Origin: Bacteroidota bacterium
Lineage (GTDB): Bacteria; Bacteroidota; Ignavibacteria; Palsa-1295
NCBI GenBank assembly: GCA_030706745.1
Contig: JAUZNX010000001.1
Location: forward strand, 186,001 to 250,000
Direction of reading: 5' to 3'
Length of the DNA: 64,000 nucleotides
Made by a program: the position numbers and the translations under genes. Of this stretch, positions 2,978 to 30,698 are shown piece after piece; positions within the stretch are counted from its first letter, which is position 1; the number at the start of each line of letters is the position of its first letter. The notes under the pieces are model-generated. The model was not told where the DNA came from. It made no database searches and saw only the letters and a program-made list of their open reading frames with translations.

Positions 2978-3046
2978 ATGAGAAAAGCCAATAGTTTTCG
3001 GGGTGGCACTGCCTCCGCACAGCATTTGCATCCGTTCGCACCATGA
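2978..3046 (+). CDS. Possible 22-residue leader peptide overlapping the T9SS cargo start
   Basis: ATG at 2978 opens a 22-codon frame whose TGA stop (3044-3046) overlaps the ATG of the next gene (3043) as ATGA. This arrangement allows translational coupling. The peptide carries basic residues (Arg, Lys, His) and no signal-peptide core. It could equally be chance: the region is short and no conservation can be judged here. Confidence 0.25.
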   Translation: MRKANSFRGGTASAQHLHPFAP

Positions 3047-6000
3047 TTATCGCGCTCGCACTCGTTGCTGCTTGCTTTGCCGGGGCAAGAGGACAATCGA
3101 ATTCCGAATATCAATTCCGGCAGCAGTCGGTCGCGGATGGTGATAGTTGGGGCCCAACCGGCGCGACCGATCCCGTTCCGGTCTTATCCATGGACTGCCT
3201 GGCGGCGAATGCCTATGGGCAATGGACGCTGAGTTCAACCGCGAACGGCGCATCCTATCCCGCAGGCTGGTACTTGCTTGCGAATGGCCTTTACAGGCCG
3301 TCACTTAAGTTCGAACCTGCCACAAACCATCCAACCTGCATTCCGCCTGGCGTGGTGCAAAGTGCTGCGCTGGCCGGAGGAGTCGTGCCGACAGAGCCGA
3401 AGGCGACGGCCAACCTGGATGGTGCGGTATCCTATGTCTGGCCCGACGCAACGACCACCCGCACGTTCTTCGCTGTCCACGGATTCGCAAGCACCGACGT
3501 GGATATTTCGCTTTCGTTTTGTTCGAACCCCGCTCCTCCAATGAATGTGGTAACGGCGCCAGCACCTCACGTTTTTCCGCTTGTCAAAACCTGGACCGGC
3601 ACGCCCACGAACACGCATACAGTTGTGACTGCCTTACCCTATCAAGACGAGTTCGACGTTGCCTCCGATGCTCGATATCTCTATATCGCGTGGTGCTCGA
3701 CGGAGAACTTCAGTCTTGGTATTACGACGAACGAAATTTGGGTAACGGTCGTCGATCTCGCAACTCAAACCACGCTTCCTACGTGGCCGAGATCAGCAGG
3801 ACAGGGCGTGCGACCTACGATTTCCTGCGACCCGCGCCAGAACCGCAACGGCGGTACAACGCCGGCCTTCGATGTTGCCTATATTTCGGCACTGCCGACC
3901 AGCGGAATGGTCCGGTGGTTCACATGGGATAACGGCTCGGGAGCATTCAACCCCCGTCCGGTCGTGAACCAATTCCGTATGCCGGGCACGGGCGCGCTTC
4001 AAGCGTATGGATTTGTCAATCACCTTCGCGTCCTGGTCAGCAGCGTCCCGGGAAGTTTGGCAGCGCACCACGCCCTCTATGCCAATGTGGATTTTGACGG
4101 GGGGACACTCATCTTATACAATGAAGACAATCCGAATCTGCCGATTGGCTTTGCCGCGTATGTCGAAGGCGACCTGCTGAGTCCGGCATCGCCCATTCCC
4201 CCAAGCGGGAATCCCTCTGCACCGGGATGGCCGATCCTCGATAAGCCCATCGCCGCCTTCGCCAATCCGTATGATAATGGCGATAACAGTACTGACCCGA
4301 TCCCGACATGGCGCGAGTTCGATCAATTCCATTGTGTGTATCAGACCACTCCACCGGCGTTTTCGCCGCTTGAAATCGTTCGCGGTTCGGATAATGGGGT
4401 TACCCATCCCGCGCCTATCGATCCCCTCGCAGCCGATACGCGCCTGACGCTCACGCAAGACGCGAGCCATGTCTTGATCCCGGATCCCGTGACGAACTAC
4501 GTTGCCGCAGTCAACCAAATGGGCATTCACGTCCACTGGCGGACCTCAACCAACATGCATTACTATGCGCGGGATCTGAACCGCGCGTTCGATGAGGACA
4601 TCGAAGAGAACACGTTAGTGACCGATCAATGCACCGTCACCGATGGCACGGCGCATGGCGGAGCGGTGGGAGCAGCCGTCAAAGGCTTTGGAGTGATGTC
4701 CGTTTGGACCGATCCGAACTATGGGCCACCGAGCGCAGACGGATTGAGCGGTCTGTATTCTCCGAGGGCGCTTGGTCTGCACAATGAGCATGTCGGCGAA
4801 TTACAATTTGTCGGCGATGGAGTCAAGCTAACAGTGGGAAGCGCGGTAAATGAACCATGTAATGGTGGACTCACTCTACCTCCTTGCAACGCTACTCTTG
4901 CCGTCATGCCATTCTTCTACTTTGACTTCTTGGGCACAAACCAGGGAGTGACGGTCAATCCAACTTCGACCTTCGATTACTACGGTCTTTATGCCACGCA
5001 TAATTCCAGCGGAATTCAAACAGGCTCGGGTACACCCTTTACGGATGGTACGGGCGATGGCGCCGGGACTGGCACTATCGATCTTGAAGGAGCATCCGGC
5101 ATGCCAGCCATCCTCAACGTCCATGGTGGCACGGATTTTAACGTCGGGCCAAATGACGCGGGTACGGTCCAGGCTACGTGGACTCAGTATGGCGACAATA
5201 ACATTTATCAGGGTACCGGGCCAGCTGCTACGCTCATTGCCGGGGCGAGCAATACGATCCTACGGGACGCGTCAAACAATTATTGGGGCGGCCAGGACCC
5301 GAATACTCACAGTGCAACGTACTGGCCGAATTTCAACTATACGCTTACTTCTGGCACAAACTTTCTCACCTCGGCAAGCTCGTATACATTTCCATTGGAT
5401 TGTGGCGCACCATTTTCACATGATACTACCGGGCTGCAGTTTCCCGTTGGCCGCGTGGTGCCACTCTCCATAACTGCCGATACCGTGTGGGATAGTTGCG
5501 ACCTGGCCGGCGGATGGGGTGAAATTTGGGATGGTCAGCAGCAATGGCTGCTCTGCTATGACACCATGCATTGGTATCTTCAGCATTGTTATGAACTCGC
5601 GGGATACGACCAAGCCTGGCAGACGTTTGGATCTGCTGCCGGCCAACGGACCATGCACGGCTCGGATTCGAACGGCTTCATGACTCAGGACAGCCTCTAT
5701 CAACTCCGTTCCTGGTTGCTGTCCGAGCGGTTCTTGAACCCCGCCGACGGCTGGTACTGTGATTGTATCTCGGTCTTAGCTGCCGTTTGGCCTGGATCGG
5801 CCCCTGCGGAATTGTCAATTCTGAAGTTCCTTATCGATAACCCACGGTGTGGGAAGGATCCGAGCTGGTCCAGGGCGTACGACATGACCCGTCATGGTCA
5901 GGTCAGCGCGTGGTATGGCACGGTTTGGGCGAGGGACACCACGGCCAAATTCGATAGTACACTTCCATCGCTTCACGATTTGGGTTTGGACTCACTGCTC

Positions 6001-6309
6001 CAAGACGCCGCTGCTGGTGTATCCTTTGAGGCGCTCGGTCCGCAGATCATTGCGGATGCGCATGTGCTTGCTAATCCCTTCCCGAATGAGACAAGCATTT
6101 CACTCACGATTAATCGCGAGGCTTATCTTCATATCGAGCTATTCGATTTGCTTGGAAATAGGGTGCAGAAGGCGGGCTTCGAAGGCATCTTCGAGAGCGG
6201 CCAGCGCGTCGTGCCGCTCGGTATGTCCTCGCAGCCGCCCGGCACGTATTACCTCCGCATATCGACCGCAAACAACGAAGTGCGGACGATCAAGTTAGTG
6301 AAAGAATAA
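3043..6309 (+). CDS. Giant secreted protein with T9SS type A sorting domain
   Basis: 1088 residues. It starts with a short hydrophobic signal-like segment (MIIALALVAACFAGARGQ) whose n-region lacks a Lys/Arg, which is odd compared with its paralogue downstream (MKSLIIALALAG). The last 85 or so residues have the T9SS type A layout: a NPFPN turn, LFDLLGNRV, GTYYLRIS and a final KLVKE. Proteins with this ending are known to be exported by Sec, then moved across the outer membrane by T9SS and anchored or released. Residues about 463-540 are nearly identical to the N-terminal part of the next gene. The body is rich in Thr, Asn, Gly and aromatic residues and has no enzyme motif I recognise. It may be a surface adhesin or structural protein. 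Confidence 0.8.
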   Translation: MIIALALVAACFAGARGQSNSEYQFRQQSVADGDSWGPTGATDPVPVLSMDCLAANAYGQWTLSSTANGASYPAGWYLLANGLYRPSLKFEPATNHPTCIPPGVVQSAALAGGVVPTEPKATANLDGAVSYVWPDATTTRTFFAVHGFASTDVDISLSFCSNPAPPMNVVTAPAPHVFPLVKTWTGTPTNTHTVVTALPYQDEFDVASDARYLYIAWCSTENFSLGITTNEIWVTVVDLATQTTLPTWPRSAGQGVRPTISCDPRQNRNGGTTPAFDVAYISALPTSGMVRWFTWDNGSGAFNPRPVVNQFRMPGTGALQAYGFVNHLRVLVSSVPGSLAAHHALYANVDFDGGTLILYNEDNPNLPIGFAAYVEGDLLSPASPIPPSGNPSAPGWPILDKPIAAFANPYDNGDNSTDPIPTWREFDQFHCVYQTTPPAFSPLEIVRGSDNGVTHPAPIDPLAADTRLTLTQDASHVLIPDPVTNYVAAVNQMGIHVHWRTSTNMHYYARDLNRAFDEDIEENTLVTDQCTVTDGTAHGGAVGAAVKGFGVMSVWTDPNYGPPSADGLSGLYSPRALGLHNEHVGELQFVGDGVKLTVGSAVNEPCNGGLTLPPCNATLAVMPFFYFDFLGTNQGVTVNPTSTFDYYGLYATHNSSGIQTGSGTPFTDGTGDGAGTGTIDLEGASGMPAILNVHGGTDFNVGPNDAGTVQATWTQYGDNNIYQGTGPAATLIAGASNTILRDASNNYWGGQDPNTHSATYWPNFNYTLTSGTNFLTSASSYTFPLDCGAPFSHDTTGLQFPVGRVVPLSITADTVWDSCDLAGGWGEIWDGQQQWLLCYDTMHWYLQHCYELAGYDQAWQTFGSAAGQRTMHGSDSNGFMTQDSLYQLRSWLLSERFLNPADGWYCDCISVLAAVWPGSAPAELSILKFLIDNPRCGKDPSWSRAYDMTRHGQVSAWYGTVWARDTTAKFDSTLPSLHDLGLDSLLQDAAAGVSFEALGPQIIADAHVLANPFPNETSISLTINREAYLHIELFDLLGNRVQKAGFEGIFESGQRVVPLGMSSQPPGTYYLRISTANNEVRTIKLVKE
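4431..4661 (+). repeat. 231-bp segment duplicated at 6393-6623 (copy 1)
   Basis: By hand alignment the two copies differ at about 22 of 231 positions without gaps. Most changes are in third codon positions, with about five amino-acid changes, so the encoded segment is under purifying selection. Sequence similarity falls off quickly outside the block. Confidence 0.8.
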
Positions 6310-6312
6310 CTA

Positions 6313-9300
6313 ATGAAATCACTTATCATCGCGCTCGCGCTGGCCGGACTCGCTCCGGCCAGCAGCGCGGTCCCGCCCATCGATTCTCTAGCAGCCGATA
6401 CGCGCCTGACGCTTACGCAGGACGCGAGCCATGTTTTGATACCGGATCCCGTGACAAGCTACGTTGCCGCGGTCAACCAAATGGGCATTCACGTCCACTG
6501 GCGGACGGCGACCAATATTCATTACTACGCACGGGATATGAACCGCGCGTTCGATGAAGACATCGAAGAGAACACGCTGGTAACCGATCAATGCACCGTC
6601 AGTGATGGCACGGCGCACGGCGGTACTGTGGAAGCTGAGATTACGTGGCCAACAATGTCCATTTGGACCGATCCAAATTATGGCTTTTCCACAACCGACG
6701 TGAATAGCGGCTTATATCAGCCAATCGATGTCACAACGCTCAATCCATACGTGGGCCAACTCAATTTTTCTGGCGACAACGTTAAGCTTTATGTTGGCAA
6801 CGCCGATGCTGAGAACACCTCCACGCTGGCAAGCATGCCGTATGTGTACTTTAACTTTCCAGGCACCGAGCAGGGCATCGAGGTGCATGGCAAGTGGGAT
6901 TACTATGGCCGTATTGCGACTCACTCCTCTCCAACCGTGCAAACGGGACTTTACACTCCTTTCACGAATGGAACGGCAAATTCGACAGGCCCGAACAGCG
7001 GCGGAACGATCGACGTTCAGGGATCGAATTGTGGCTGCGAAGCTGGCGGATATTTCCCCGGTCATCTCATCATCCATGGCGGCGCGGATTTTTTCACCGG
7101 CGCGAACGGCAAGTTGATCGTCGGACCCTACGATGGCTCTGGCTTCCCGTCTGGCGAAGTTGATGTCAATTTTGAGGCGAATCTGTATCCATTAGCGACA
7201 TCCGCAAATCCATCGGCAACCGGACATCTGACGCTTCTCGGACGGACCCTCCTTACCGGGGATGGCTCGGGCGGTGTCGGTGGATACAATGGCGCGATGA
7301 TTGGGAATATTCCGTTCGATGGTACGAATTCCATCACTGTCTTTAGGAATTCCAAACAGGCAATCATGACGGTCAAACCTGGCTACGTAGAAGGAACGAG
7401 TGACGATCAATTTTATGCAAATGGTTTTCGATTCGAGAACACGGATCACAACGGGTTGAGCGAACTTGATTTTGGCTTCGCGAACCGCACATCTCCGGTA
7501 TTCACAAACCCACAACATTGGGACATCGAATCCTGCACTGGCATCGCCAGTCAGATTCACCTGTTGGACCCCGAGCAAACATGCACTTTCACCGTCAGTG
7601 GCAGCTCATTCGATCAGATCCGGGGCAAGTGCATATTTTTGGATAACGACCAGACCCCACTCGACGCGGCCTATGGCGCTATGGCGGTTACCTCTAACGA
7701 CTTCAAGCAGTTCGCTGGCAGCGTGTTTGGAACATATTCGAATCCACTATCGACGGACCCGCCTACGTTTGTTGACGAACCTTATGGTGTTTATGCGAAG
7801 GGCTTTGACTGGAACGACCTTGCCCGCTTTGGAGACCCAGAAATGGTAACGCCAAAAATCAACAATAATACATTCACGGAGAGTCAGTTTCATGCTGAAC
7901 TCGAAGCGGAAGCGACTAGCGACTGGAATACGCTGGGTTGGACAGACGCTGCAATCGGACTGGAGAACACGACCTCGATGGTGGTCGGAAATCTCATAAC
8001 CGATAACGGTTATCCGGCTGGAATTTCGCTCCTAACTCCCATTCCTGCCGTCGGTGGGTGGATTGGTAGCCCGCCACAGACCTATTCTGTGCTTTGCAGC
8101 AATACAATTCAAGGCATCGTAAATACGACCTATGACGGTGCAGTCGAGTATTTTGGGATAGTGGCGAACGGCTTGATCGGAGCCATTAGTCTGAATACCA
8201 TTACCGGCAATGACGTCGGAGTTGCACTCTACGATCACAATAAGCCGTTTCTGACCTATAACGACCTGACTACAAGTTTGGAAATTGCGCTCGACGTACA
8301 GAATGGAAACAACGGCCAATCGCTGGCGCGCATGTCCATCGATCCTCTTACCGCTACATTTGGAGCATTCAATAGCCTCAGCACCCAAGGCTATTATTCC
8401 GCGGAATCCGAACTCTGTTCGCCAATATGCATAGAATGCCCACACCATTCGATTGCAGGTGGTACTTTCGACATAGAGAAGGGCCAGAATAATATTACAA
8501 TAAGCTCGATTTCAGGTTCAAGCGGATTCTTTCTAATCTATGCGAATGGGTCTACCGAGGGGTACGGGGAAGTTGGGGGAAATTACTGGGCCGCAGCCAC
8601 TACCACCGTTACCCCTAAGCCCTACCCAAATGTTGTGTGGGCTACATTGGGAAGTACTCACATTGATGTAAGCAACAGTAATACTTGGACGACGGTTTAC
8701 GGACCTGCCCCTGAATCGCTGCCGCCTAACGGCAAGAACTGTCCCGCGGATGCTGGGTACGTGCCCGGTTGCATCGCAGGCAAAAAGGGGAGTCAGCCTT
8801 TGGCCGCATCTCCTGATTCGGCCTCCTGCGCTGATTTTTATAAGAGAATTCAACATTATGACGAATATCAGGAATGGCAAATCGTATACGATTCGGGAAA
8901 ACAATTCGTCGAGACCTGTTCTAATGACGCAAACGTAACCAATGTGTTCACGGAGATCACTGATGCTGCGCGTTGGCTTTCGGGAATGGATACGGGACTC
9001 CATACCAAATATAGAGATTGGCTTGAATCTGTCCTTTACTTGAATACCACGAATCCCTACTATTTTTGCATTTGCGTTCAGGAAATTGCGGCAACCGTTA
9101 ATGGATACGCAAGCGATACTGGTGAAACTCAACTCTGGAAAGATCAGAACTGCACGCTTGCGGTTTATGCCTGGCTGATGCATAATACGAGTTGTGATGC
9201 ACAGCATTTCCTTTGGGGATCATACAAGGCGACTCGTAATTCTCAGCGTGAATCGTGGTTGAACGACACGACGGTGCCATATGATACCACGCTTCCTTCC

Positions 9301-9657
9301 ATGCGGGATCTCGGTTTAGACTCATTATTGGCGATCCACTTCAAGTATGCGTGGGTTCCGAGCGGCGGGGATTTTGGGAAGCATGTCTCGTCGTACTCGG
9401 TATCGGAGAACCCGCTGCATGACATAACCACGCTTCGGTTCGATCTCTCGGACGCGGAGTATGTGAGGGTGGAGATATTCGATGTGATGGGCAACAATAC
9501 GCCATGTCCATCGCTTCAAAAAACGGGTGCAGGCCTGTTCGAATCGGGCCAGCACCAAATCCCCATCGACTTCTCGCGCTGCGCCTCCGGCACGTATTAT
9601 CTCCGCATCACGCTCGGCACCGGCGAAGTGCGGACGATCAAGCTTGTAAAAGAGTAG
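6313..9657 (+). CDS. Giant secreted T9SS cargo protein, paralogue of the upstream gene
   Basis: 1114 residues, starting three bases after the stop of its paralogue, so almost surely in one operon with it. A signal peptide ends near residue 19 (ASSA). Residues about 27-103 match the conserved block of the upstream protein. The middle (about 330-760) has Asn/Gly/Thr-rich strands of the kind NNNTFT and SLNTITGNDVG, suggesting a right-handed beta-helix. The end has the T9SS type A sorting layout: SENPLHD, VEIFDVMG, GTYYLRIT and KLVKE. Both paralogues also share a DTTLPS-x-x-DLGLDSLL segment just before the sorting domain. Probably a cell-surface or released protein; substrate unknown. Confidence 0.8.
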   Translation: MKSLIIALALAGLAPASSAVPPIDSLAADTRLTLTQDASHVLIPDPVTSYVAAVNQMGIHVHWRTATNIHYYARDMNRAFDEDIEENTLVTDQCTVSDGTAHGGTVEAEITWPTMSIWTDPNYGFSTTDVNSGLYQPIDVTTLNPYVGQLNFSGDNVKLYVGNADAENTSTLASMPYVYFNFPGTEQGIEVHGKWDYYGRIATHSSPTVQTGLYTPFTNGTANSTGPNSGGTIDVQGSNCGCEAGGYFPGHLIIHGGADFFTGANGKLIVGPYDGSGFPSGEVDVNFEANLYPLATSANPSATGHLTLLGRTLLTGDGSGGVGGYNGAMIGNIPFDGTNSITVFRNSKQAIMTVKPGYVEGTSDDQFYANGFRFENTDHNGLSELDFGFANRTSPVFTNPQHWDIESCTGIASQIHLLDPEQTCTFTVSGSSFDQIRGKCIFLDNDQTPLDAAYGAMAVTSNDFKQFAGSVFGTYSNPLSTDPPTFVDEPYGVYAKGFDWNDLARFGDPEMVTPKINNNTFTESQFHAELEAEATSDWNTLGWTDAAIGLENTTSMVVGNLITDNGYPAGISLLTPIPAVGGWIGSPPQTYSVLCSNTIQGIVNTTYDGAVEYFGIVANGLIGAISLNTITGNDVGVALYDHNKPFLTYNDLTTSLEIALDVQNGNNGQSLARMSIDPLTATFGAFNSLSTQGYYSAESELCSPICIECPHHSIAGGTFDIEKGQNNITISSISGSSGFFLIYANGSTEGYGEVGGNYWAAATTTVTPKPYPNVVWATLGSTHIDVSNSNTWTTVYGPAPESLPPNGKNCPADAGYVPGCIAGKKGSQPLAASPDSASCADFYKRIQHYDEYQEWQIVYDSGKQFVETCSNDANVTNVFTEITDAARWLSGMDTGLHTKYRDWLESVLYLNTTNPYYFCICVQEIAATVNGYASDTGETQLWKDQNCTLAVYAWLMHNTSCDAQHFLWGSYKATRNSQRESWLNDTTVPYDTTLPSMRDLGLDSLLAIHFKYAWVPSGGDFGKHVSSYSVSENPLHDITTLRFDLSDAEYVRVEIFDVMGNNTPCPSLQKTGAGLFESGQHQIPIDFSRCASGTYYLRITLGTGEVRTIKLVKE
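6393..6623 (+). repeat. 231-bp segment duplicated at 4431-4661 (copy 2)
   Basis: Second copy of the block shared by the two tandem T9SS cargo genes. It sits right after the signal peptide here but in the middle of the upstream protein, so the two proteins differ by a large N-terminal extension. Confidence 0.8.
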
Positions 9658-13655: not shown

Positions 13656-14135
13656 TTACAACGGCTTGAAGCGCTCGAACCCTTGCCTGCAATCGTTGCA
13701 GTAATGGATCGAGCGGCAGAGCGTCGAGCCGAACATCGATTGCATGGAGGTGTTCGCACTGCCGCAATGTGGGCACGCTACCGATTCGATCGCTGCAAGA
13801 TCGAGCATTCCATCGATTTGCACTGGCGCGCCGAGACCAAACGCTTCGAGCAATTGACGACCGCGATCTGTGACACGATCGCTGGACCACGATAGCTCAG
13901 TCTCCATCTCCACCTCGGAGTTCGGAAATCCCGAGCGCGCGAGTGCCTCTTTGATGTTCGCGCGGATGTAACTCGTCGCGGGACACGATACAAACGTCGG
14001 TAGTAACCGGACGCGTACGCCATCATCGCTCACCTGCACGTTCGTAATCATTCCGAGATCGAGAACGGAGAGCGTCGGAATCTCGGGGTCCATAACGGTC
14101 CCGAGAACTTCATAGACTCTATCGCGCGCTTGCAT
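13656..14135 (-). CDS. paaD: Phenylacetyl-CoA epoxidase-associated protein PaaD
   Basis: 159 residues (161 from an ATG two codons earlier). PaaD is a small Fe-S maturation-type factor required for the PaaABC(E) monooxygenase that turns phenylacetyl-CoA into its ring-1,2-epoxide. The N-terminal half is a MIP18/DUF59 domain (VMDPEIPTLSVLDLGMI; conserved Cys in TFVSCPATS) and the C-terminal end has a zinc-ribbon (CPHC and CNDC). The start at 14135 overlaps the paaC stop as TAATG, the same arrangement as seen at paaB, which favours translational coupling. It is the last gene of the leftward paa operon; no paaE reductase follows in this window. Confidence 0.93.
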   Translation of the reverse strand: MQARDRVYEVLGTVMDPEIPTLSVLDLGMITNVQVSDDGVRVRLLPTFVSCPATSYIRANIKEALARSGFPNSEVEMETELSWSSDRVTDRGRQLLEAFGLGAPVQIDGMLDLAAIESVACPHCGSANTSMQSMFGSTLCRSIHYCNDCRQGFERFKPL

Positions 14136-14884
14136 TACCATATCGCCGCTGGATCTAACCGATACACTTCCGTCATCTCATCGAGGAGCGGTTGCAGATG
14201 CTCGGTGTGGTATCCATGACGCCCACCATACTTCGGCTCGATGGCAGTCGGAATCACGAGGCCAGCCCGTTCGATGATCGGCACGATCGTCTCCTGCCAC
14301 AGTACCTGCAACTTATCTTCACCGGAGAATACGCCGTTAGTGACGAGAACTTCTTCGTAATCGCACGGCTCGAACATTCCAAGCGCATACGGCCACGCTT
14401 CGGTGAGTGCCGTCTGCATGCGTGCGCGACTCTCTTCGGTGCCCTGACCGAGTTTGGAAACCCAAAGATCGGCATGGAGCACGTGATACTTGAGTTCGCC
14501 TTTGATCTTGCGAGCGAGCGCGGCAAGCGGTGCGAACGATGATACTGTCAGCATCTCGTATCGCAACATCTCGGCATGATCGAACAAGAAATGCCGTATA
14601 AGACTAAACGCGTAATCGCCAATTGGAAGCTCGGTGAACTGCGAGGAATGAAATTGCCTCTCACCCCGGCTGAATGCGATGGCGTCCGGAAGCGACTCGC
14701 CGAACTCCTCGTGCAGCAGTTGGTAGTTCGCGACTGCGTGACCGATCTGGTCCTGCGCGATGGAGCTGAACGCGATGTCCTCTTCGAGGATTGGTCCGAG
14801 TCCGGTCCACTCGCTGTTGCGATGGCCGAGCACCAGCTCGTCATCGGCCATCCGGTATAGTAGGTCTTTGATCGCTTCGCTCAT
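14135..14884 (-). CDS. paaC: Phenylacetyl-CoA epoxidase subunit PaaC
   Basis: 249 residues, the usual PaaC length. It is the structural partner of the catalytic PaaA subunit in the (PaaAC)2 core of the epoxidase. The family signatures are DDELVLGHRNSEWTGLGP near the N-terminus, DIAFSSIAQDQIGHA, and FPIGDYAF-like and YHVLHAD stretches. It begins one base after the paaB stop and an AAAGGAG sequence lies about 10 bases before its ATG. In the known complex PaaC lacks a functional metal site and stabilises PaaA. Confidence 0.95.
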   Translation of the reverse strand: MSEAIKDLLYRMADDELVLGHRNSEWTGLGPILEEDIAFSSIAQDQIGHAVANYQLLHEEFGESLPDAIAFSRGERQFHSSQFTELPIGDYAFSLIRHFLFDHAEMLRYEMLTVSSFAPLAALARKIKGELKYHVLHADLWVSKLGQGTEESRARMQTALTEAWPYALGMFEPCDYEEVLVTNGVFSGEDKLQVLWQETIVPIIERAGLVIPTAIEPKYGGRHGYHTEHLQPLLDEMTEVYRLDPAAIW

Positions 14885-14885
14885 G

Positions 14886-15302
14886 TTAGCCAGACTCCTT
14901 TTCCATCATATCAAGGTACTTGTTCGCCGCGAGTTGCTTTATTTCGTCGAGATATTTGTTGATGCGCTTGCGGACCGGATAGCCGGAGGCATCGCGGTAG
15001 GTCTTCTCCGGCGCGGTCGCGAACATATCGTCGTCCTCATGCTGGAAGGTGTAGATGTCCGACGAGCGGACAGCCCAGAGGTTCACCGTCTTCTTGCGGC
15101 GGCCGAATTGCTCCTTTGCAAAGACGAGCGCCAACTCCGGATCAGGCGCGTGGACGATGCCGACGAACTCGTGTGCCGCGCCGCGCTTATCCTGATGGAA
15201 GATCGCGTAGGTCTCCCAATGCTCGTTCTGCTCGAGGCCGCCGGAAGCAGGTGAGTGCTCCAAATCGGCGCGGCGGATGCGGGGGTCAAGACTTTGTATC
15301 AT
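14886..15302 (-). CDS. paaB: Phenylacetyl-CoA epoxidase subunit PaaB
   Basis: 138 residues. PaaB bridges the PaaAC heterodimers of the multicomponent epoxidase. The family core is seen at residues about 28-75 (WETYAIFHQ, HEFVGIVHAPDPELAL, AKEQFGRRKKTVNLWAV). It is longer than E. coli PaaB (about 95 residues) through N- and C-terminal extensions; the C-terminal KRINKYLDEIK stretch occurs in other PaaB proteins of this size. Its ATG overlaps the stop of the preceding YD-like gene (TAATG), so translation of paaB depends on that gene. Confidence 0.93.
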   Translation of the reverse strand: MIQSLDPRIRRADLEHSPASGGLEQNEHWETYAIFHQDKRGAAHEFVGIVHAPDPELALVFAKEQFGRRKKTVNLWAVRSSDIYTFQHEDDDMFATAPEKTYRDASGYPVRKRINKYLDEIKQLAANKYLDMMEKESG

Positions 15303-16342
15303 TACTGTTTCAAAAAGTCGTACTCGAAATGTTGCTCACAGCGTAGCTCACCCTTTTCATCGAACGTCCGTTCGCTCAAAGGCTGATTATCTTTCCAAAC
15401 GTACTCATTTCGCTCGTAACCAGCATCCCATGTCAGTGGGCGACCTGCAGAATCGTAAGCATACGACGACGTGAAAGTATCTAATCCTGAACCACAATCC
15501 GAATACCGTCCGGACAGGTGGGCAGAAAAAATGTAATTACCGCGCTCATCATATCTGGCCTCCTCGCAGAGGCAAGGCGGAAGCAAGTTATCGTCCGAAC
15601 ACTTCAATTCGTAAGTGACTGTCCTGACAAGTGCCCCATTGGAGTAATAGAACATGCTATCAACTCGATCTGGCCTGGAGGGCCTTGTATGATACAAGTA
15701 TGAAAGAACTAAGTGACCGTCCGCATCAAACACGTTCTTGCGCTTTTCGATGAAGTCCCACTTGTTCCAATGTTCCCTGTCTTTTAGCGTCTTGTCCTTC
15801 CGCATCTGTATGCTGCTATCAATTCTATGATGCGGACCATAATATTGAATCTCGATGCCATGAGACATCTTGCTACTATCCTTTATCGTGAGCACATTAC
15901 CCGACAAAGAATACTGCCATGCTGTAATCAGAGGACTGCCGCCGGTGACCCAGCTCTCCTCGTAAAGGTGCCTGCCCCAAGAATCGTACGTTGCGATGCT
16001 TCCTCCACCGGTCCCCAAAGCGTGTTCATAACGGACAGTGTCGTTCGAATCAAACTTCATGATGGACCGGTATGTACCGTGCGATTCTGTTGTTGTTGTA
16101 ATGATGGTGTCGCCAACAATCTCAAATGTAGTTTGCGATGTATCGATTAAGTTGGCCCGATTCCATTTTTCAATCTTTCTCACCCACTGCAATCGATGTG
16201 AACGGACCCATTTGATAACGTTAGGATTAAGCCTGAAGAAGTCTATCCCAGGCTCCACATGTTCAGGCCATTGTTGCGCACGTGTTTTGGCTGCTACAAG
16301 TAGCAAGGCACAACTGCAAGATATGAGCAAAGCCAGCCGCAT
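15302..16342 (-). CDS. Exported YD/RHS-like repeat protein inside the paa operon
   Basis: 346 residues. The start at 16342 gives a signal peptide (MRLALLISCSCALLLVAAKTRAQQ); an upstream in-frame extension runs into paaA and is rejected. The mature protein contains repeats of the kind YDxxGxxxxxxxY (for example EARYDERGNYIFSAHL, YAYDSAGRPLTWDAGY, FDEKGELRCEQHFEYD), as in MORN/YD/RHS proteins. It lies between paaA (five bases away) and paaB (overlapping stop/start TAATG). No role in phenylacetate catabolism is known for such a protein; it should be in the periplasm or outside. It may be a late insertion into the operon. Confidence 0.7.
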   Translation of the reverse strand: MRLALLISCSCALLLVAAKTRAQQWPEHVEPGIDFFRLNPNVIKWVRSHRLQWVRKIEKWNRANLIDTSQTTFEIVGDTIITTTTESHGTYRSIMKFDSNDTVRYEHALGTGGGSIATYDSWGRHLYEESWVTGGSPLITAWQYSLSGNVLTIKDSSKMSHGIEIQYYGPHHRIDSSIQMRKDKTLKDREHWNKWDFIEKRKNVFDADGHLVLSYLYHTRPSRPDRVDSMFYYSNGALVRTVTYELKCSDDNLLPPCLCEEARYDERGNYIFSAHLSGRYSDCGSGLDTFTSSYAYDSAGRPLTWDAGYERNEYVWKDNQPLSERTFDEKGELRCEQHFEYDFLKQ

Positions 16343-16347
16343 GTCTC

Positions 16348-17340
16348 TTAGGCGTACGGTACCATCCGTTTCTGCGTCGTACTCATTAGCGCCTCGCGGA
16401 CCCAGCGGCCGTTCTCCTCGGCGTAGCGGCGGACGGCCAGGCGCTCCTTGTTGCACGGGCCATCGCCATTGATGACGCGGAAGAATTCATCCCAGTCGGG
16501 CTGCGTGTATTCCCACTTGCCGGTCGCTTCGTCCTTGCGGAGTGCGGGGTCGGGCAGTGTCATTCCAAGCTCCCAAATCTTCGGCACATACTGCTCGATG
16601 AAGTCCTGCCGCATCTCTTCGTTGCTCGCCATCTTCACTTTCCAGCGCATCAGCTTTTCGGTGTGGACCGAGATCGTGTCCGGCGGACCGAAGAAGTGCA
16701 TCATCGGCGGAAACCACCAGCGGTTCAGCGCGTCCTGCAGCATCTCGCGCTGCACCGGCGTCCCGACTGCCAGCGCGACGAACGCATCGTAGCCTTGCTT
16801 GAGATGAAAAGACTCTTCATAGCAGATTCTCTCAAGCGCGCGGCAGTATGGGCCGTAGCTGCCCTTCGCGTTTGCAAGCTGGTTGACGATCGCGCCGGCA
16901 TCGACCAAAAAGCCGATCACGGCAATGTCGGCCCACGTCTTCGCGGGATAGTTGAAGATATTGCTATACTTCGACTTGCCCGAAATGAGATCGTTGATCA
17001 TCGCCTCGCGCGTTTTGCCGAGCGTTTCGGCGGCGGAGTAGAGCAAGTGCCCGTGCCCGACTTCATCCTGCACTTTGGCAATCAGCGCGAGTTTGCGCTT
17101 GAGCGTTGGCGCGCGTGTGATCCACGTCCCTTCCGGCAGCGCGCCGATGATCTCGGAATGGGCGTGCTGCTCGATCATGCGCAGAAGTTGGCGGCGATAT
17201 TCCGCGGGCATCCAGTCGTCCGGCTCGATCTTTTCGCCACGCGCAATGCGAGCTTCGAACTCGGCTAACTTAGCGGGATCTTCGGCCTGTCCATTCTGAG
17301 CAGGCTTTGCATCTGGTTCGATGTAGGCGTTTCCGTACAT
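16348..17340 (-). CDS. paaA: Phenylacetyl-CoA epoxidase catalytic subunit PaaA
   Basis: 330 residues (E. coli PaaA is about 310). It carries the di-iron site that epoxidises the ring of phenylacetyl-CoA. Signatures: [31 protein letters not shown] near residues 40-70, [21 protein letters not shown] (a metal-ligand helix with E-x-x-H), a second ligand helix with [16 protein letters not shown], and [14 protein letters not shown]. The start MYGNAYIEP at 17340 lies two bases after the TetR gene stop, so regulator and enzyme share one transcript. Confidence 0.97.
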
Positions 17341-17342
17341 AG

Positions 17343-17915
17343 TTATCTGGCGATTATTCCTTCGATCAATATTGTGGTGATCTGGTTCAGCTCTTCCAGA
17401 GTGGGTTTCCGCTGCGTGCGATACGACTCGTATGTCCAATTGGTCGCGGAAAGGAGGGTATGGGTTGCGAGGATTGGATCGATGCGTCTGAACAAGCCGC
17501 GATCCATTCCTTCTTCAAGAATCGAACGGAACATTCGTTCGTACCGGCGCCGCATCAATTTGAAATCGGTGATGTAGGGCTCGCCCATGTGCCGCCACTC
17601 GTGCAGGAACACGGCGGAGGCATCCGCGTTAAAGGTAATCACTCCGAAGTGAGCTTCCATCGCAGCGCGGAGCTTTTCCTTTGGATCGATCGAGCTACGC
17701 ATCACGGGCTCGATTGCCGCAAAAAATGATTCGGCCATTGCGAAGCAAATGTCGCGGAGGATTTCTTCTTTCGAACCGATATGATTGTAGAGGCTCGCAG
17801 CCTCGATCCCGATCCCATCGGCAAGATCGCGCATGGATGTCGCGCTGTATCCGCGCTCGCGGAACAATGTCTGAGCTTTCAGGCGAATCTGATCTCTTCT
17901 GGCGACAGTTTTCAC
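17343..17915 (-). CDS. TetR-family repressor of the paa operon
   Basis: 190 residues. The helix-turn-helix lies at about residues 20-50 ([36 protein letters not shown]), a typical TetR N-terminus. The C-terminal part (residues 70-185) is the ligand-binding domain, most like regulators of acyl-CoA degradation pathways. It is the first gene of the leftward paa operon. A perfect 16-bp palindrome starts six bases before its start codon, so autorepression with release by an aryl-CoA intermediate such as phenylacetyl-CoA is a reasonable inference. It resembles PaaR of Thermus in role, but I cannot prove orthology. Confidence 0.88.
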
Positions 17916-17972: not shown

Positions 17973-18893
17973 CTATAGCAAGCCAGTGAACCGTGAGAAA
18001 AGCGGCAACACATAGCTAATTCCGACAGAGACTTCCGGCAAGCGCAATCCGTGTATGAAATCTTCACTGCCAAAAACGCCGGTGAGAGGATAACCGCCAG
18101 CAATCAGCAACAGAAGAGCATGGTCGTCGTGCGTGGCAAGTGGGAGCCCGATCACAAGTCTCGGCTCCAATACAACATTCATCAGTGAAGCGCCCGCGTA
18201 TTTCGCAGTCGAGAGAGGATCGCTTCCAATGTGGGTGATCGCTTTGCCATTAATTGGCCACTCGATCGAAAGACCAAGACTTACAAGTCCGCGATAGCTC
18301 AAGCCCGGCGTGAGAGTAAGATACTGCAATATCCAGCCAGTATCGATAGCAGACCTCTCATTGAAAAATGCTCGTGTCTCATAACCGGCCGCAACGAACT
18401 CACCTAAAAAGTGGCCGAGAATGCTCGGAATGCGAATACCCAAAATCCCGACTGCCTCCCAACCGATCTCGCCCTTCATTCCCGAGTTCGGCAGCGACAT
18501 CCCACCCATAAGCACTGGAGCGAAATAGGCTTCTAACCTCGGATGCTGAATGGGTCGAAGCATCATGGGCTTGTAGAATTCGGTATCCGATACTTCCTTC
18601 CAATCCGAAACTCCTTTAACATGCGAAGCCTGAATCTCCTGTTTGAGGCCAGACTCATTAATCAAAACGACCCAATTCGAATCTCGGGAGATAACATGCC
18701 CCATAAAGGCGCCATATGGCTTCATCGAAAGCATGATGCGCCCAGTATCTGGTCCGGCGTGAACCCACAGCGCATTGGAGTCTCGCGCAACCCACTTCAT
18801 GTGCGGGTGCGGTTTTAGGGAATCAGCTTCTGTCCTTGCAAGCAGGACGACCGGAAGGAAAAGAACAAGTCCACACAGAATGCATCGTCTCAT
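17973..18893 (-). CDS. Exported protein with N-terminal SH3-like and C-terminal barrel-like region
   Basis: 306 residues with a signal peptide (MRRCILCGLVLFLPVVLLARTEA). Residues about 30-100 (VHAGPDTGRIML, GAFMGHVISRDSNWVVLIN) look like a small beta-barrel of SH3 type. From about 110 to the end there are amphipathic strands with Gly/aromatic positions (GEFVAAGYETRAFF, LSLGLSIEWPI) ending SYVLPLFSRFTGLL, compatible with an outer-membrane barrel. It follows the ATP-grasp gene by 29 bases and may share its transcript. Confidence 0.55.
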   Translation of the reverse strand: MRRCILCGLVLFLPVVLLARTEADSLKPHPHMKWVARDSNALWVHAGPDTGRIMLSMKPYGAFMGHVISRDSNWVVLINESGLKQEIQASHVKGVSDWKEVSDTEFYKPMMLRPIQHPRLEAYFAPVLMGGMSLPNSGMKGEIGWEAVGILGIRIPSILGHFLGEFVAAGYETRAFFNERSAIDTGWILQYLTLTPGLSYRGLVSLGLSIEWPINGKAITHIGSDPLSTAKYAGASLMNVVLEPRLVIGLPLATHDDHALLLLIAGGYPLTGVFGSEDFIHGLRLPEVSVGISYVLPLFSRFTGLL

Positions 18894-18922
18894 ATCCCAA
18901 TAACCCAAGACACCCGAGAAAG

Positions 18923-30625: not shown

Positions 30626-30635
<10 letters not shown>
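29235..30635 (+). CDS. DUF2851 family protein
   Basis: 466 residues. The family signature is at the N-terminus: PEYLQREIWKDH near residue 3-14, LEIGRENEHRGGPDFLGARI (about 33-52), GDVELHTNASGWHEHKHHTD and YSNVVLHVV. A C-terminal Cys cluster (CDTARCSECPVG) may bind a metal. DUF2851 is common in Bacteroidota and Chlorobiota; its function is not known. The last ten bases, including the TAA stop, lie inside the tRNA-Gly gene. Confidence 0.85.

Positions 30636-30698
<63 letters not shown>

Follow-up and report, generated by a model that had tools for sequence, protein, structure and literature searches.

Why does a gene for an exported protein stand between paaA and paaB, which encode two subunits of the phenylacetyl-CoA epoxidase? 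This arrangement occurs in a 64,000-nucleotide stretch of a Bacteroidota genome (assembly GCA_030706745.1, contig JAUZNX010000001.1, positions 186,001 to 250,000), referred to below as the window. In the sections of Martin and McInerney (2009, PMC2653477) that deal with this operon, paaA, B, C and D are found together in 25 of 25 cases and paaABCDE is called relatively invariable. The accessible part of a 2026 survey (PMC13186573) stresses flexible organisation, and neither 'inserted' nor 'gene order' occurs in that text. A narrow search of the literature on paa gene order returned no description of an insert at the paaA|paaB junction, and no papers were found on phenylacetate in Kapabacteria, a guessed class name. 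The interior of this supposedly invariable operon has been invaded repeatedly in one genus, and the scars left behind suggest how. With a probability of roughly 0.7, the gene is a lineage-specific passenger in a recurrently invaded junction of the paa operon and has no part in the pathway, because most relatives carry unrelated genes at the same junction. The genus was sampled with seven genomes, designated G000 (the genome of the window) to G006, and the outgroup genus g2 is represented by G007 and G011.

An exported gene between paaA and paaB

The features of the cluster, all located on the minus strand of the window, are the following.

17343..17915, minus strand: TetR-family regulator, first gene of the cluster (Pfam TetR_N 7.5e-12, TetR_C_24 1.2e-22)
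16348..17340, minus strand: paaA, phenylacetyl-CoA epoxidase subunit (Pfam PaaA_PaaC, E 1.4e-81)
15302..16342, minus strand: YD, the inserted gene, encoding an exported RHS/YD-like protein of 346 aa (strong homologues confined to G005, at this junction too)
16277..16342, minus strand: predicted signal peptide of YD, ~22 aa, cleavage A^Q (translation inspected by eye)
15300..15304, minus strand: TAATG, in which the stop codon of YD overlaps the start codon of paaB
14886..15302, minus strand: paaB, epoxidase subunit (Pfam PaaB, E 7.4e-23)
14135..14884, minus strand: paaC, epoxidase subunit (Pfam PaaA_PaaC, E 3.7e-74)
13656..14141, minus strand: paaD, Fe-S assembly-type protein (Pfam Zn_ribbon_PaaD 1e-21, FeS_assembly_P 1.2e-14)

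The gene order is thus tetR, paaA, YD, paaB, paaC, paaD, with Pfam support ranging from E 1e-81 to 1e-21 for the four paa genes. The start of paaA was set at MYGN in an ORF that is open to 17439, and a tetR gene is found directly upstream of paaA in G001, G003, G004, G005, G007 and G011 as well. The placement of an exported gene between paaA and paaB, on which the original prediction was built, is confirmed: the ATG of YD follows the paaA stop by 5 nt (TAAGAGACATG) and its TAA shares one base with the paaB ATG. A co-transcription of YD, or its coupling with paaB, is plausible from this spacing. Tight operon packing is an unsafe guide to function, even so, as passengers too can have a stop-start overlap. 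A by-eye reading of the translation gives a Sec-type signal, MRLALLISCSCALLLVAAKTRA^Q, and A^Q also closes this segment in both of the YD homologues of G005. Two other features of the window may be mentioned at this point. Its single Rfam match is a tRNA gene at 30626-30698, and two adjacent ORFs, 3043-6309 (1088 aa) and 6313-9657 (1114 aa), have a common 70-bp 3' end with 80% identity, possibly a shared C-terminal sorting tail.

YD is a real coding gene and no chance ORF, since its frame is kept in three diverged copies (the two homologues, of 339 and 408 aa, show 35% and 31% identity to the window's protein) and its codon score beats those of all five other frames. Its composition is atypical: among 283 ORFs, the codon use of YD falls at the 11th percentile, that of paaA at the 99.6th and that of paaB at the 100th, while its GC content is 47% and its GC3 stands at the 8th percentile. 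This codon use may be due to the level of expression no less than to origin, because another apparently exported gene nearby (17973-18908) sits at the 9th percentile too.

The YD/RHS-like character attributed to the protein holds only as a remote resemblance. A profile built from the three family members matches the solved Rhs-family protein 8h8a in hmmsearch (E 9e-6, profile positions 264-329). No family model, however, reaches its cut-off: Pfam gave nothing above threshold for the window's protein, and the curated limits of the RHS_repeat and YD_repeat models were not attained (RHS_repeat best E 0.0046, seen in two of the three family members; YD_repeat_2x E 0.22, in one of the three). The AlphaFold model is nearly all-beta, and its low confidence (mean pLDDT 55) made it serve as a hint only; a Foldseek search with this model ranked Rhs cores first (E 1e-5, TM <=0.30). 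The protein shares with RHS/YD-repeat proteins, such as Rhs shell domains and teneurins, the strand-turn-strand repeats with YD..GR motifs. It differs from them by its size of only 346 aa, by the absence of a visible shell or effector tip and by family scores below threshold. 'YD-like' therefore seems a fair description, whereas membership of the Rhs family would go beyond the evidence. The product is probably an exported RHS-like beta-hairpin envelope protein that evolves much faster than its neighbors: between the window and G005, identity is 31-35% for YD, 83% for PaaB and 90-91% for PaaA. An exported, fast-evolving envelope protein would suit YD better than a metabolic partner.

The junction in the class and in the genus

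Strong homologues of YD (E<1e-150) are present in 2 of the 391 genomes of the class, that of the window and G005, and only at paaA|paaB. Matches in seven further genomes were marginal and partial (best E 8e-5), and no paralogue was detected elsewhere in the window's genome at E values up to 10. By comparison, a paaA match exists in 158 of the 391 genomes, and YD is not conserved alongside the paa genes across the class. These counts bear on the possibility that YD assists phenylacetate use as a functional accessory (an envelope sensor, a binder or an uptake aid), kept for its co-production with the epoxidase. The tight packing and coupling, the export and the double presence at the junction in G005 would all suit such a role. 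It is nevertheless improbable, considering the 2 genomes with strong homologues against 158 with paaA, the absence of YD from five congeners whose paaABCD is intact, the sister species G001 among them, and the divergence of YD between two species whose PaaA and PaaB are well conserved. No evidence for a YD role in phenylacetate metabolism was obtained here.

The original prediction also took the epoxidase subunit genes to be normally encoded side by side. Positions were listed for 138 of the 158 paaA genomes and 138 of the 143 paaB genomes, 137 genomes having both; those in which a match or its partner gene was not listed were left out of the count. Among these matches, paaA and paaB share a contig and a strand and are no more than 10 kb apart in 94 of the 137 genomes; in the remaining 43 they are split between contigs or strands, or a single contig has them at a great distance. 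In the single-contig genomes G037 and G046, ~50 and ~360 kb separate them. Adjacency of paaA and paaB is no rule in this class, since 43 of the 137 genomes with both genes have them apart. Gaps >300 bp occur, again among the matches listed, in 18 of the 94 linked pairs, that is 6 of 7 in the genus of the window and 12 of 87 outside it (p 1.4e-4 in a Fisher test that takes genomes as independent). A second genus, g18, contributes five genomes with gaps >300 bp. In the three whose inserts were examined (G027, G036 and G045), the encoded proteins are similar and 124-125 aa long; that of G027, the one scanned, matches TIGR02436, a four-helix bundle family.

Within the genus, where the PaaA proteins of the other six genomes are 90-95% identical to that of the window, the paaA-paaB gap taken from tblastn match ends measures 1045 bp in the window, 90 bp in G001, 2855 bp in G002, 534 bp in G003, 595 bp in G004, 2270 bp in G005 and 982 bp in G006. 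It is 15 bp in G007 and 6 bp in G011, the two outgroup genomes. Six of the seven genomes of the genus hold differing cargo at this junction. Besides YD in the window, G005 carries two diverged YD homologues in tandem, and G006 a 95-aa ORF and a PIN-like protein (PIN_3 26.7 bits, cut-off 27). In G003 the cargo is a GIY-YIG nuclease, a similar second one being located at paaB|paaC. The insert of G002 comprises three ORFs, one of 97 aa that is weakly MazE-like, one of 181 aa that appears to be exported and one of 596 aa, and that of G004 a 191-aa orphan ORF without family match. The main inserted ORFs are co-directional with the paa genes; each of the antisense ORFs >=80 aa found inside the inserts (107, 84, 91, 123 and 89 aa) is contained in a longer ORF on the sense strand. 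The GIY-YIG genes at paaA|paaB and paaB|paaC of G003 and at paaB|paaC of G005 (paa loci L050 and L046) accompany palindromic repeats, ATTCCCGCGAACGCGGGAAT and similar ones, that have the look of a dispersed repeat family.

A conserved paaA-YD-paaB order, one of the possibilities considered, was rejected, strong YD homologues being limited to the window and G005. The order is not kept in relatives: G001, the sister species, has a spacer without any inserted gene, and four other congeners have unrelated cargo. A gene found only here, with odd codon use, at a place where relatives have paaA next to paaB had been named as the opposite outcome. The short gaps of G001, G007 and G011 and the atypical codons agree with that outcome, but it holds only in part because G005 has YD genes at this place too. 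As for the two origins proposed for YD, insertion by chance is favored by the empty junctions of G001 and g2 and by the unrelated cargo elsewhere, and the role in aromatic-compound sensing or uptake is left without a supporting tie.

The presence of YD at one junction in two species that are not sisters is unpredicted by random cargo and counts against the passenger reading. It could point instead to an old vertical resident, inherited from an ancestor of part of the genus, fast-diversifying and lost or replaced in G001, G003 and G006, in which case only the other cargoes would have been inserted. Indeed, G000 and G005 have YD in the same place, and the divergence among the three YD proteins is too great for YD to have passed recently from one of these two genomes to the other. 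Trees that rest on few genes pair G000 with G001 and G005 with G006, however, so that at least two losses are needed, and the spacer of G001 is an inverted repeat in which no YD remnant is visible. This vertical history is possible, if rather doubtful. A variable junction could also be produced by errors of metagenome assembly or binning, given that G005 at least is titled MAG and that several genomes are fragmented. Such an artefact is hardly credible: inserts are seen in six of the seven genomes, including G002 and G004 with a listed completeness of 100%, the contigs of the window and of G005 reach 605 kb and 132 kb, and reading frames and spacing are intact.

Duplicated gene edges and a possible route of entry

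In favor of the passenger reading, short copies of gene edges, named seams here, were found beside inserts by self-comparison of each locus. At the paaA|paaB junction, a copy of the paaB 5' edge lies between the two YD genes of G005 (65 bp, 95%), another between the 95-aa ORF and the PIN gene of G006 (47 bp, 85%), and a copy of the paaA 3' edge follows the MazE-like ORF of G002 (81 bp, 88%). The paaD 3' edge is repeated ~900 bp downstream in G001 (70 bp, 87%). The nuoI 5' edge is copied upstream of a small ORF and a PIN gene in G000 (58 bp, 84%); in G001 such a copy (38 bp, 97%) precedes a PIN gene. The intact gene remains in all six cases, and duplicated edges thereby offer a simple explanation for the survival of insertions within operons. 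Comparison of the window's locus with itself revealed no seam or direct repeat flanking YD. Outside the window, contig C1 of G000 contains more gene-edge copies similar in kind to the paa seams, at 21907-21986/22632-22711, 103427-103469/103664-103706 and 125966-126046/126830-126910.

In G005, the paaB copy (approximately its first 25 codons) is fused in frame to the second YD gene, and the join lies near an ATG that would also provide this gene with a plausible signal-peptide start. A fused second ORF that opens with the start of paaB is what a plain tandem duplication of YD and the paaB edge would leave, giving YD1, paaB fragment, YD2 and paaB without any insertion process. This account is unlikely: the paaB edge is 95% identical over 65 bp and YD1 and YD2 are widely different, which implies very different ages, and the same edge signature accompanies unrelated cargo in G006, G002, G000 and G001.

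The seams were also compared with the corresponding genes of other species. Three of the six are closest to their own gene (65/74 for paaB of G005, 64/71 for paaA of G002 and 37/39 for nuoI of G001). The other three resemble a foreign gene more: the paaB seam of G006 matches G005 at 46/47 positions and its own gene at 40/47, the paaD seam of G001 matches G000 at 64/70 against 61/70, and the nuoI seam of G000 matches G001 at 53/58 against 49/58. Each of these foreign-looking seams is weak when taken alone, because the foreign match was the best of several species for paa and came from the sole species compared for nuoI. Import from another species would in any case not be general, since half of the seams are closest to their own gene. 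A break in identity between the paaB genes of G000 and G001 at codon 25/26 (p 0.01, uncorrected) falls in a region that is variable in many pairs; as a sign of recombination in G000 it is weak and was dropped as evidence.

These scars can be accommodated in a single scheme. In this genus, short co-directional genes of unrelated kinds enter the paaA|paaB junction and, more rarely, paaB|paaC and some junctions in a nuo operon. Recombination close to a gene edge, or at the edge itself, would join the incoming DNA and leave the duplicated edge as a seam; insertion near the end of an operon gene would be tolerated through the surviving intact copy. The conserved genes on either side could afterwards allow related species to exchange or stack the resident cargo. 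In a variant of this scheme, the paaA or paaB of a relative supplies the homology and the cargo is stacked, as A-X-B'-Y-B or A-X-A'-Z-B, which would account both for the three seams that resemble a foreign gene more and for the pair of YD genes in G005. YD would thus be carried, and probably co-expressed with the epoxidase, while not being needed by it; as no seam is visible beside the window's YD, its entry route is inferred from relatives. A more specific picture may be offered tentatively, as speculation for the most part. Operon junctions would be shared cargo pockets, in which interspecies recombination anchored in one subunit gene ends with an illegitimate join near the other, stacking the donor cargo and leaving seams, and YD alleles would circulate only through the paaA|paaB pocket, riding on epoxidase expression. 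Capture by Ku-dependent end joining is disfavored, Ku having been found in none of the seven genomes of the genus. The DprA family is present in all seven, a distribution that alone says little on competence.

Other operons and related insertion processes

Insertion is frequent in the paa operon and in a second nuo operon, and rare in the ribosomal operon. Counted over junction-genome cells of the genus with reference to the G000 gene table, gaps >300 bp occur in 8 of 21 cells for paa, 0 of 21 for the first nuo operon (nuo1) and 1 of 129 for the ribosomal operon. In the second nuo operon (nuo2) they occur in 2 of 5 at D|H and 3 of 5 at H|I, junctions chosen because inserts had been seen there and so no random sample. 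The rarity in the ribosomal operon is as expected if strong selection removes insertions there. A hotspot restricted to paa was consequently rejected, the nuo operon showing inserts too. A seam process exclusive to this genus was likewise abandoned, gene-edge direct repeats being present in the outgroup genome G007. Local direct repeats number 10 in 400 kb of the window's contig against 23 in 400 kb of G007 after array removal, many of the latter inside repetitive genes; in both genomes some lie at gene edges, as sorted by eye.

The closest known process is insertion with long target duplication (Nobusato et al. 2000), described for restriction-modification genes in the parts of the literature consulted (PMC3031569, PMC1643837). 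As far as those parts describe it, that process resembles the present one by its long and variable direct target duplications, found by comparing related bacterial genomes; there is no transposase among the inserts examined here. A bordering target duplication is found for the inserts of G002, G005 and G006 at the paaA|paaB junction but not for the window's YD, and uninterrupted alleles exist in G001 (90 bp), G007 (15 bp) and G011 (6 bp). The cargo differs from that described in the same parts, being made of PIN, GIY-YIG, MazE-like, exported YD and orphan genes placed inside operons at gene edges. No restriction-modification gene is among it, the Pfam and NCBIfam matches of the scanned cargo being PIN, GIY-YIG, MazE-like or none. 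Also unlike that process, half of the duplicated edges are closest to the gene of another species.

A second likeness is to homology-facilitated illegitimate recombination and to merodiploids made by transformation, which, in the portion of PMC3784515 that treats them, combine pairing at homology, a join elsewhere and duplicated host sequence. The pneumococcal merodiploid duplication reported in that portion spans ~107 kb between chromosomal repeats, against 38-81 bp for the seams.

It is said, by Price, Arkin and Alm in 2006, that new genes are inserted into operons during operon evolution. The entry of a lineage-specific gene, co-directionally, into an existing operon is common to that process and to the paa junction, which differs in having been invaded repeatedly, with differing cargo and with visible molecular scars.

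Some minor observations concern the nuo operons and repeats of these genomes. In the window's genome, locus L119 (G000:C5:150228-168989, reverse strand) contains inserts in a nuo operon at ~5766-8608 in reversed-locus numbering. One of 646 bp separates nuoD from nuoH; nuoH and nuoI are separated by an 86-aa ORF and the PIN gene, with the 58-bp copy of the nuoI start in front. In several congeners the second nuo operon (L119, L122, L118) includes an ORF of ~1010-1045 aa with an apparent signal peptide between two nuo genes. Finally, G000 and G001 contain arrays of ~47-bp repeats with a 77-bp period (L117:12253-12992 of the reversed locus and L134:1887-2843), which appear CRISPR-like as judged from the repeats alone.
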